Assembly (NCBI RefSeq): GCF_000002515.2
Contig: NC_006040.1
Coordinates: 186,001 to 250,000 of the forward strand
DNA: 64,000 bases
Direction of reading: 5' to 3'
Source of the DNA: Kluyveromyces lactis
Lineage: Eukaryota; Ascomycota; Saccharomycetes; Saccharomycetales; Saccharomycetaceae
Translations under genes and position numbers: made by a program
Part shown: piece by piece, positions 32,659-61,479 of the stretch
Layout: the number at the start of each line of letters is the position of its first letter
How positions within the stretch are numbered: position 1 is the first letter of the stretch
The notes under the pieces: generated by a model
What the model saw: the letters and a program-made list of their open reading frames with translations, nothing else
Told to the model about the DNA's origin: nothing
Database searches by the model: none

Positions 32659-33797
32659 TCAAGAGCTTTTACTACCAATTGGTAAACATGCGTCCATCTT
32701 AGAAAACGCTCGTAATTGTTCAATGATCATCTCTGGGAAACATTTCATCATTCTCAGAAAATTCACATAAAACGGTCTACATATTTCACCTCTCCTCCCC
32801 TCAATGCAACATTGTGTGATCTCTTTGGCCAATTCAGGTGCTTTAATTACTGGTGCCAAGAATTGTCTTGGAGGCTCAAACCCTTGGAACATTTGCGTAT
32901 CCATTTGACCAGGCAATACCAAGAGTGTTCTGACATTCATCGCATTATCATTCAGAAGCTCATACGTCCAAGATTCATGATACGATATCAATGCTGCCTT
33001 AGAAGCAGCATATGTGCTAGCTCTAGCAGGTGACATTATTCCTAACGCACTAGCAATATTAACAACGTAGTAAAAATCGTTATTTGCAGATTTCTTAGGA
33101 TGGAATGCTTGGATTAATCGTATGGTGGACAAAACATTTGCATGGAATATCTTATTCATTTCGACACATGGCATATCAGCAAGTCTGGAAAATCTACCCC
33201 TTATAGCAGCATTATTTATCAATAAATCAACTTTTGGAAACTTGTTCTTGATGGTTTTTATGGCATTTTCAACTTCCTCGTCGCTTGATAAATCACACCT
33301 TAGGAACTCAATCCGGTCTTTGGTAATCGATAAGTCTAGTTTAGGATCTACAACGTCTAGTATAACAATTTTGATGTCAGGGATATCACTCATCAACGAT
33401 TTTACAAGCTCGTTGCCTAATCCAAGACTCCCTCCGGTAATGACACACACCGGATCAGCTGTGTCTTTTATTGATATCCAAGAACCCCTAGTCTTATACT
33501 TGGTATCAATGTGGAAGTATATCGTTAATAGTACACTATAAGTCAAAAGTACAGGGTATAAGTATCGGAGATTTAAGCCGAGTAATCTGTTAACTCAGTA
33601 TCAATGGTAACTCATTGCTTGTTAGTATACCTATTTTCATGTCCAAGTATATCTTTCCCGTAAGTGCTCATCTCAACATACTTTTCAACCAGGATTAAAG
33701 GTAGAACTGGGTATCTAATTAACGGCTGTAAGGTTTCCCATAACGTGTCGACATTTTGTATCCATGTAGTACTACCTTGCATACTGAAGTTCTTCAT
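32659..33797 (-). CDS. TDA5: Tda5, membrane short-chain dehydrogenase (spliced)
   Basis: Proposed join: exon 1 at 33797-33682, intron 33681-33587, exon 2 at 33586-32659; 347 residues (S. cerevisiae Tda5 about 326). The unspliced downstream frame has no ATG near its start, only TTG. Splicing restores an ATG start and an uninterrupted N-terminal membrane segment near residues 40-60 (LLGLNLRYLYPVLLTYSVLL). The catalytic part is a classical SDR: nucleotide loop TGGSLGLG, NNAAIRG, active-site YAASK. The substrate is unknown; related yeast SDRs act at the ER or lipid droplets. Position beside TUS1 matches YLR426W. From memory, the S. cerevisiae gene also has an intron, which would fit. Confidence 0.9.
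33587..33681 (-). other. TDA5 intron
   Basis: 95 bases. GTATGT begins at 33681, a perfect TACTAAC lies at 33627-33621, and CAG ends at 33587. The join completes a Lys codon (AA+A) and keeps frame. Confidence 0.85.
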
Positions 33798-60019: not shown

Positions 60020-60448
60020 TCGTACAAAAAACCACCACTAAATCAATAGTTGTGACGAAAATAGTTGCAAGAGATATCCGAAAACTAGCCAATTGTATCT
60101 AGAATTCCGAGTGCATTCACTGATCGGTGTTAATGATGTTGTACAAGTCCAACCCAATGTGCATTCACTTAGTTCTGAATTAAATATCCGTTCATGATGT
60201 GATGATTTCTACCATCTTAGTCTTTCCAAGCGGTTTCATAAGAAATTTTTCATAGAAAAATACTACCATATCTTGGTCACATGATTAAGCCTACAACATT
60301 ATTCTTTTAAGGAAAATATGAACAAATGGCGTCAGCAGTGGCAAACTGTTTAAATAGGACCTACACACACGAAGATATCAATCATAGAACATCTGAGAGA
60401 TTGTCAGACCAGTGGTATAGGTTTAAAAGAGGAGAGAAGAATATTGAT
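60020..60448. promoter_or_regulatory. Divergent DCK1/RPN13 promoter
   Basis: About 429 bases. It has a CACATG E-box (60278-60283) and AGTGGCAAA (60337-60345), a one-base variant of the Rpn4 proteasome element. An in-frame ATG at 60326 and a short out-of-frame ORF from 60318 also lie here; I read both as leader or promoter sequence. Confidence 0.5.
60337..60345 (+). promoter_or_regulatory. PACE-like Rpn4 site upstream of RPN13
   Basis: AGTGGCAAA keeps the core of the proteasome-associated control element GGTGGCAAA and lies about 104 bases before the proposed RPN13 ATG. Most yeast proteasome genes carry such a site. Its place within the frame upstream of 60449 suggests that frame is promoter or leader, not coding. 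Confidence 0.45.
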
Positions 60449-61479
60449 ATGACAGAGGCGATCAGTTTTAGGGCAGGAAAATGTGATTATGATGAGGAGA
60501 GTAAAATTTGTACGCCGAAGCAGATGAAGGGGGAGATCCAGATCAAACCCAGTGAAGAAGCGCAAGGGTTTTTCGATTTCCAATGGAGCACTAAGGATCG
60601 AGTCTCAGGGTCAGCAGTGGAACCAATTGAGTTTATTTTGATTCCCGGAGAGACGAAATGGATCGATATAAAGTCAGCTAAGAACGGCAGAGTGTTATGT
60701 TTACTCTTCTCTACTGGTGAGAAATGGTTTTTCTGGTTACAAGAAAAGCACCAAGGCAATGAATCGTTGAACGAATGGAGTGAAAAGGATAAAGAGTTAC
60801 TTGCTAAGCTTCAGAAACTGTTGGAATTTGAAGAGGAAGAGGAAGAGGAAGAGGAAGTCAAAGAACAAGAACAAGAACAAGAACCGGAAAAGATGGAAAT
60901 TGACCCTCAAGACAATGAACAGCCGAAGGCCGACTCCAATCCGTAAGTATATACGCGTTGTACATTACTCATTTTGAAGCAATAGATCAAAAATAAGGAA
61001 CTGTAAACAGTATTTGAGATTTGATAGGCATTTTCAACGTCCAACTCTCCTTCTTTTCAGATCTGTTATTTCCAAATCATTACGATTTTATCATTACCAA
61101 ATTAAACTATATTTTACTAATACTATGTCCTAGTACCATCCGTATAAACCATCTTTCTGATTTCCTAACTAAAGATATGTTAGTGAAGTATATTGGATCT
61201 CTTTCTGAGGAGTCTACCGAATTCAAAGAATTATGTAACTGTTTGCCTGAGGATGTCGAAAAGGGAAAAGAAAACCTTTTGAAATGTGTAAGAGGTCCAT
61301 TCTTTCAGCAAGCAGTTGACATTTTGGACTTAGCTACGAAGCAGAGCTATTCGGGACAACAACTCTCACAAATGTTTGGATATTCGTATACCGGAGAAGG
61401 ACCACGAGCTCTACTGGAAGGACTTAGAAATAAGGGCCTCCAGGAAAAGCTAAAGAAGCAAGATTCACAATCAGAATAA
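60449..61479 (+). CDS. RPN13: Proteasome receptor Rpn13 with Pru and DEUBAD domains (spliced)
   Basis: Proposed join: exon 1 at 60449-60942, intron 60943-61133, exon 2 at 61134-61479; 279 residues. Exon 1 encodes the Pru ubiquitin/Rpn2-binding domain, which matches S. cerevisiae Rpn13: FRAGKCDYDEESKICTP, ILIPGETKWIDIKSAKNGR, FFWLQEKHQGN. It ends with a Glu/Gln-rich linker. Exon 2 encodes a helical domain with LCNCLPEDVEKGKENLLKC, GPFFQQAVDILDLA and GQQLSQMFGY, which lines up with the UCH37-binding DEUBAD of human ADRM1/RPN13 (LPYLP, SPQFQQAL, GQLGPLMCQFG). S. cerevisiae Rpn13 (156) lacks this domain. The start at 60449 is chosen because the upstream in-frame ATG (60326) adds 41 residues unlike the family. 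Confidence 0.88.
60943..61133 (+). other. RPN13 intron
   Basis: 191 bases. The 5' splice site is GTAAGT (60943-60948), the branch site TACTAAT (61115-61121, one base from consensus) and the 3' site TAG (61131-61133), 13 bases after the branch A. The join completes CC+T (Pro165) and stays in frame. The in-frame stop for the unspliced form is the TAA inside GTAAGT. Confidence 0.8.

Follow-up and report, generated by a model that had tools for sequence, protein, structure and literature searches.

The window analyzed here, a 64-kb stretch (contig C4:186001-250000) of the seven-contig, 10.73-Mb Kluyveromyces lactis genome, has in its ORF list two neighboring reading frames, 60326-60946 and 61177-61479, that appear to be parts of a single RPN13 gene interrupted by an intron (Table 1). 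Exon 1 ends in phase 2 at 60942, and joining it to 61134 produced one open frame of 279 amino acids from ATG 60449, or 320 from ATG 60326. The preliminary description of this DNA had linked the two ORFs in frame through GTAAGT, TACTAAT and TAG signals and had placed the junction at 60942/61134. All of these signals were present (donor at 60943-60948, branch-point-like motif at 61115-61121, acceptor at 61131-61133), and both frame and signals agreed with that junction. The flanking genes in the window, DOCK-like and amidohydrolase, fit what we take to be the S. cerevisiae gene order, DCK1-RPN13-URA4.

Table 1. Features of the predicted RPN13 locus (window coordinates)
Feature	Position	Strand	Description
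Possible 41-codon N-terminal extension	60326..60448	+	Upstream ATG; coding score near zero, 0.04 bits per codon
PACE-like element AGTGGCAAA	60337..60345	+	One mismatch vs GGTGGCAAA; ends 104 bp before ATG 60449
Predicted RPN13 exon 1	60449..60942	+	Pru domain with an acidic tail; 164 codons plus 2 nt
Predicted intron	60943..61133	+	191 nt, phase 2; GTAAGT/TACTAAT/TAG
In-frame TAA within donor (CC/G TAA GT)	60944..60946	+	Unspliced RNA would give Pru-only protein ending DSNP
Predicted RPN13 exon 2	61134..61479	+	DEUBAD (UCH37-binding) domain and stop; 114 residues
RPN13_C (PF16550) match	61150..61380	+	Profile positions 20-91 of 112; C4:247150-247380
100-aa ATG ORF inside exon 2	61177..61479	+	Counterpart KDRO_D01280, 98% identical

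The predicted protein probably starts at ATG 60449 and would thus be 279 amino acids long. We prefer this start because three related Pru proteins (P0006, P0007 and P0008) begin at the same methionine, because the 41-codon extension has no counterpart in them and was seen only in P0005, a 99%-identical ORF, and because the coding score of the extension is neutral. The extension is more likely 5' leader or promoter than coding sequence. The PACE-like element within it differs by one base from GGTGGCAAA, which we take to be the Rpn4/PACE element motif; one-mismatch matches across the window numbered 12 against 12.7 expected, and the element is suggestive of an Rpn4 site by its position only. A short upstream ORF at 60318, MNKWRQQWQTV, is out of frame with RPN13 and overlaps ATG 60326.

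Exon 1 matched the Pru profile PF04683 with an E-value of 2e-27 (96 bits, cut-off 25), and the genome search found no second Pru domain. Its best match in the PDB was the 26S proteasome subunit RPN13 of 156 amino acids (E 5e-45), presumably that of S. cerevisiae. The C-terminal end of K. lactis Rpn2, APLPSSFKVEDSLEF, aligned with APLPTPFKVDDNVDF of the yeast Rpn2 in the PDB; PMC5494190 describes the C-terminal extension of human Rpn2 as the docking site for Rpn13.

The predicted intron and the second exon

Triples of donor, branch point and acceptor are not rare in this DNA, as strict patterns gave three on the plus strand and seven on the minus strand of the 64-kb window. A junction screen of the window with loose patterns, requiring a minimum of 100 open codons before the junction and 80 after it, returned four junctions, three of which sit within single long ORFs; only 60942/61134 bridges two separate ORFs. 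In nine hand-picked intergenic gaps, 147 of 12,220 positions preceded at least 114 open codons, a proportion that overstates chance because some of these open runs enter neighboring genes. Exon 2 had a coding score of +0.16 bits per codon in the predicted frame and -0.55 and -0.52 in the other two, and the intron scored negatively in all three (-0.28, -0.81 and -0.41). The whole open stretch from 61018 scored 0.09, mid-range among 62 long open stretches, and the coding score is supportive of exon 2, not decisive. Intron RNA structure was unremarkable (z -1.12).

Two other plausible introns lie on the minus strand of the window, both with canonical GTATGT/TACTAAC/CAG signals. The first, 28947-28786, would place a short first exon with a terminal Met codon ahead of GRFVRASKYRHVYGQPAKK, presumably part of a coronin-like protein. 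The second, 33681-33587, would add a hydrophobic N-terminus to ORF 32659-33393, which we take to belong to a dehydrogenase-like family. The RPN13 intron departs in both donor and branch point from GTATGT/TACTAAC, the Saccharomycetaceae consensus given in PMC4202332. Its acceptor ends just 12 nt past the branch-point motif, which is short for K. lactis, a species reported there to have a longer distance between these elements.

The preliminary description had recognized a DEUBAD in exon 2 from the motifs LPED, GPFFQQAV and GQQLSQMFGY. All three were present, and the domain assignment was supported by a match to the Pfam profile RPN13_C (PF16550) at E 1.8e-6 and 28.5 bits, though under the curated cut-off of 39.3; the joined Rpn13 protein gave E 7.4e-6 and 26.5 bits against the same cut-off. 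In a whole-genome profile search, this was the only RPN13_C match at E <= 10. The strongest evidence for exon 2 as a putative DEUBAD is this RPN13_C match itself, which directly follows the single Pru domain that the genome search found. The profile match is far more convincing for the predicted domain than is pairwise similarity to human ADRM1, which is modest (40 of 5000 shuffles scored as high). KDRO_D01280 and the P0129 record carry precomputed PF16550 and PF16550.11, respectively. A phmmer search of exon 2 against the PDB returned 0 sequences up to E 10, and a fold model built from a two-sequence alignment was uninformative, with no significant fold match.

In at least one public annotation, the tail of exon 2 is a protein of its own: KDRO_D01280, a 100-aa 'hypothetical protein' from Kluyveromyces lactis, begins at the ATG equivalent to 61177. 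The earlier remark that the second ORF has no independent start context was thus too loose, as an in-frame ATG exists and is used by the annotators. The locus could accordingly be read as two genes, one for an Rpn13 that, like the S. cerevisiae protein, has only the Pru domain, and one for a small separate DEUBAD protein from ATG 61177; each ORF has its own start and stop, and the 100-aa version nearly equaled the 114-aa exon against RPN13_C (28.1 vs 28.5 bits). However, the RPN13_C match starts at exon 2 residue 6, ahead of this ATG, though the residues before it add little score, and the intron signals restore the frame at a junction of a type unique in the window. Four Pru proteins also end in a manner compatible with a phase-2 GTAAGT donor, and human and S. 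pombe Rpn13 each have Pru and C-terminal domain in one protein, according to PMC2935449. We regard two independent genes as very improbable. Instead, the public record appears to be a split gene model, which the predicted spliced RPN13 corrects.

The off-consensus splice signals, and the observation that the four significant matches among 553 candidates all stopped within exon 1, might also be taken to mean that exon 2 is a decaying relic whose splicing-in was lost. Against this, exon 2 has coding-like codon use, the UCH37 gene (below) is intact, and exon 2 is 98% identical to KDRO_D01280 with no frame break, though this pair is too close for a strong test. A relic is extremely improbable in our judgment.

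A candidate UCH37 partner

A full-length Rpn13 had led to the suggestion that this lineage may keep a UCH37/Uch2-type deubiquitinase, and a candidate was found. The genome encodes two C12 peptidases about 3 kb apart on contig C5: P0003 (309 aa, KlUCH37), with a UCH37-type C-terminal domain, and the distinct, Yuh1-like P0004 (245 aa, KlYuh1). P0003 matched the C12 peptidase profile PF01088 with E 1.8e-52 and the UCH_C profile PF18031 with E 1e-5 (25.7 bits, slightly short of the curated cut-off of 26.0); P0004 had no UCH_C match in the profile search. The PDB matches of P0003 were UCHL5 (2.9e-42), BAP1 (9.4e-32) and UCHL3 (1.2e-10), and its alignment with UCHL5 spanned residues 3-289, C-terminal helices included. 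An AlphaFold2 model of P0009, which differs from P0003 by one residue, was confident (pLDDT 85.6) and has C-terminal helices at 233-308. Its best fold matches were UCH37 chains, the first two from RPN13 complexes, and the top one was 4wlq_A, UCH37 of the UCH37-RPN13 complex (TM 0.75/0.79).

The active-site residues Q82, C88, H171 and D186 of KlUCH37 were invariant in 32/32 aligned relatives (the best 32 of 120 listed, out of 851 UCH37 matches). In human UCH37, changing F117, F121 or L181 to alanine lowers debranching about 20-fold in each case, as reported in PMC9033301. This K48-debranching backside patch corresponds to F120, F124 and L188 in KlUCH37; F120 and L188 were found in all 32 aligned relatives and F124 in 27 of them. 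KlYuh1 has G, D and S at these positions, in a region where the alignment is weak. Judged by its alignments, its UCH_C match and the model, P0003 is a UCH37 ortholog.

We think it very probable that a single gene, K. lactis RPN13, makes up the locus, is spliced at 60942/61134 and acts with the C5 UCH37 as an Rpn13-UCH37 module. The evidence comprises the sequence and its gene structure, the homology of the domains, a candidate partner enzyme in which the catalytic and K48-debranching residues are conserved, and a conserved Rpn2 tail, and from it we infer splicing, binding, activation and debranching by K. lactis Rpn13-UCH37. Splicing of the pre-mRNA would yield a full-length 279-aa proteasome ubiquitin receptor whose Pru domain would bind ubiquitin and dock on the C-terminal tail of Rpn2. 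The exon 2 DEUBAD would bind the C5 UCH37 at that enzyme's C-terminal helices, bringing it to the proteasome and activating it, and the proteasome-bound enzyme would trim or debranch K48-linked chains.

This predicted arrangement resembles that of human ADRM1/RPN13 and UCHL5/UCH37 (PDB 4WLQ, 4UEL), in which Pru and DEUBAD likewise follow each other in one protein, as they would in K. lactis after splicing. KlUCH37 shares with the human enzyme the C12 domain, UCH37-like C-terminal helices, the active-site tetrad and the K48 patch. Unlike in human ADRM1, a stop-in-donor intron separates the acidic tail from the DEUBAD in K. lactis, and the sequence similarity between the two DEUBADs is weak. Among fungi, S. 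pombe Rpn1301 also has a C-terminal domain and co-purifies with Uch2, according to PMC2935449, but S. pombe has two Rpn13 homologs, whereas the K. lactis genome gave one Pru and one RPN13_C match. S. cerevisiae Rpn13 has a strongly similar Pru (E 5e-45) but, at 156 aa, is Pru only. The preliminary description was right that this yeast lacks both the Rpn13 C-terminal domain and UCH37, which is stated in PMC2935449 and, for UCH37, also in PMC8635973; both were presumably lost. The K. lactis module is most likely a complete one of the ordinary Rpn13-UCH37 kind, absent from S. cerevisiae.

One set of residues could suggest otherwise. Human RPN13 R309 and Y313, said in PMC11603131 to bond with UCH37 E300, are aligned with E and C of the K. 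lactis protein (pairwise alignment, hand-numbered). Such differences would fit a spliced gene whose DEUBAD and UCH37 have drifted as a pair into a different role, or a UCH37 that works mainly off the proteasome. Yet Plasmodium UCH37, with serine in place of E300, retains Rpn13 binding according to the same source, and the genome search found no other DEUBAD match; searches with the NFRKB and ASXH profiles, both run without a positive control, had no match in it either. We consider such drift, or work mainly off the proteasome, quite improbable and retain the ordinary proteasomal module as our reading.

Most budding-yeast proteasome work uses a species that lacks UCH37. K. lactis is genetically tractable, is related fairly closely to S. 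cerevisiae and appears to have the Rpn13-UCH37 module in full. The contribution of UCH37 to a yeast proteasome and the cost of its absence could therefore be tested directly, through comparison of the two yeasts or exchange of parts between them. It is the placement of a complete module in an S. cerevisiae relative that is useful here; an intron switch, considered next, would be a new part.

The stop codon within the donor

Because the predicted intron is in phase 2 and its donor is GTAAGT, unspliced RNA reads AAT CCG TAA. The retained-intron product would be 165 aa from ATG 60449, near the length of the 156-aa yeast Rpn13 in the PDB. Four retrieved Pru proteins, presumably from Kluyveromyces, were compared as proteins: P0005, P0006 and P0007 end in SNP and P0008 in PNA, all compatible with a phase-2 GTAAGT donor (NP or NA, then TAA). 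P0005 is nearly identical to the gene in the window, so three of the four are independent.

Leaky or regulated splicing that yields a Pru-only Rpn13 is possible given this structure. Such an intron might set the share of proteasomes carrying UCH37, which is compatible with the single spliced gene favored above. The stop within the donor, the similar lengths and the four Pru protein ends all agree with this idea, as do a donor and branch point that are off the consensus given in PMC4202332. Human Rpn13 without the DEUBAD occurs naturally, but PMC8677766 describes it as apparently a product of the proteasome and reports that no splice variant was detected. Moreover, the stop needs no special purpose, since retained introns in Yarrowia lipolytica almost invariably bring a premature stop from the intron boundaries, favoring NMD, according to PMC2911113; the relatives, too, were compared at the protein level only. 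We consider it unlikely that the intron regulates UCH37 loading. Likewise, it is decidedly unlikely that it forms a true switch, in which splicing gives UCH37-loading Rpn13, retention gives DUB-free Pru-only Rpn13, and the donor stop has been kept in close relatives for that purpose. If such a switch did exist, a failed splice in the S. cerevisiae lineage could have fixed the Pru-only form, leaving UCH37 without a dock and then lost. A single splicing failure, at a stop already in place, is suggested as a concrete route for losing a proteasome function.

Distribution and neighborhood of UCH37

Kluyveromyces, Lachancea and Eremothecium form one group. Among the best 120 of 851 UCH37 matches, the named Saccharomycetaceae were Kluyveromyces dobzhanskii, six Lachancea species and Eremothecium gossypii; no Saccharomyces, Zygosaccharomyces or Torulaspora was named among these, and several high-ranking entries carried no name. 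This distribution is consistent with a loss of UCH37 once the Kluyveromyces-Lachancea-Eremothecium group had branched off, although on its own it is no proof. In P0012 and P0014-P0023, from Lachancea, Eremothecium and others, precomputed UCH_C was absent, yet the C-terminal stretch aligned; the DEUBAD-binding end of UCH37 may be diverging in these proteins.

The K. lactis UCH37 gene has a SAC3/GANP-family gene on one side and a gene of the scramblase family on the other, with the Yuh1-type gene nearby. At C5:884453-888455 (L001, L002), the SAC3/GANP-family gene lies between the Yuh1-type and UCH37-type peptidase genes, which is possibly an old tandem neighborhood. We take the SAC3/GANP, scramblase and Yuh1-type genes to be THP3, AIM25 and YUH1, if the assignment is right, and S. 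cerevisiae presumably has YUH1 next to AIM25. With these assignments, the K. lactis UCH37 site would correspond to the YUH1-AIM25 interval of S. cerevisiae, where the empty site could be examined.
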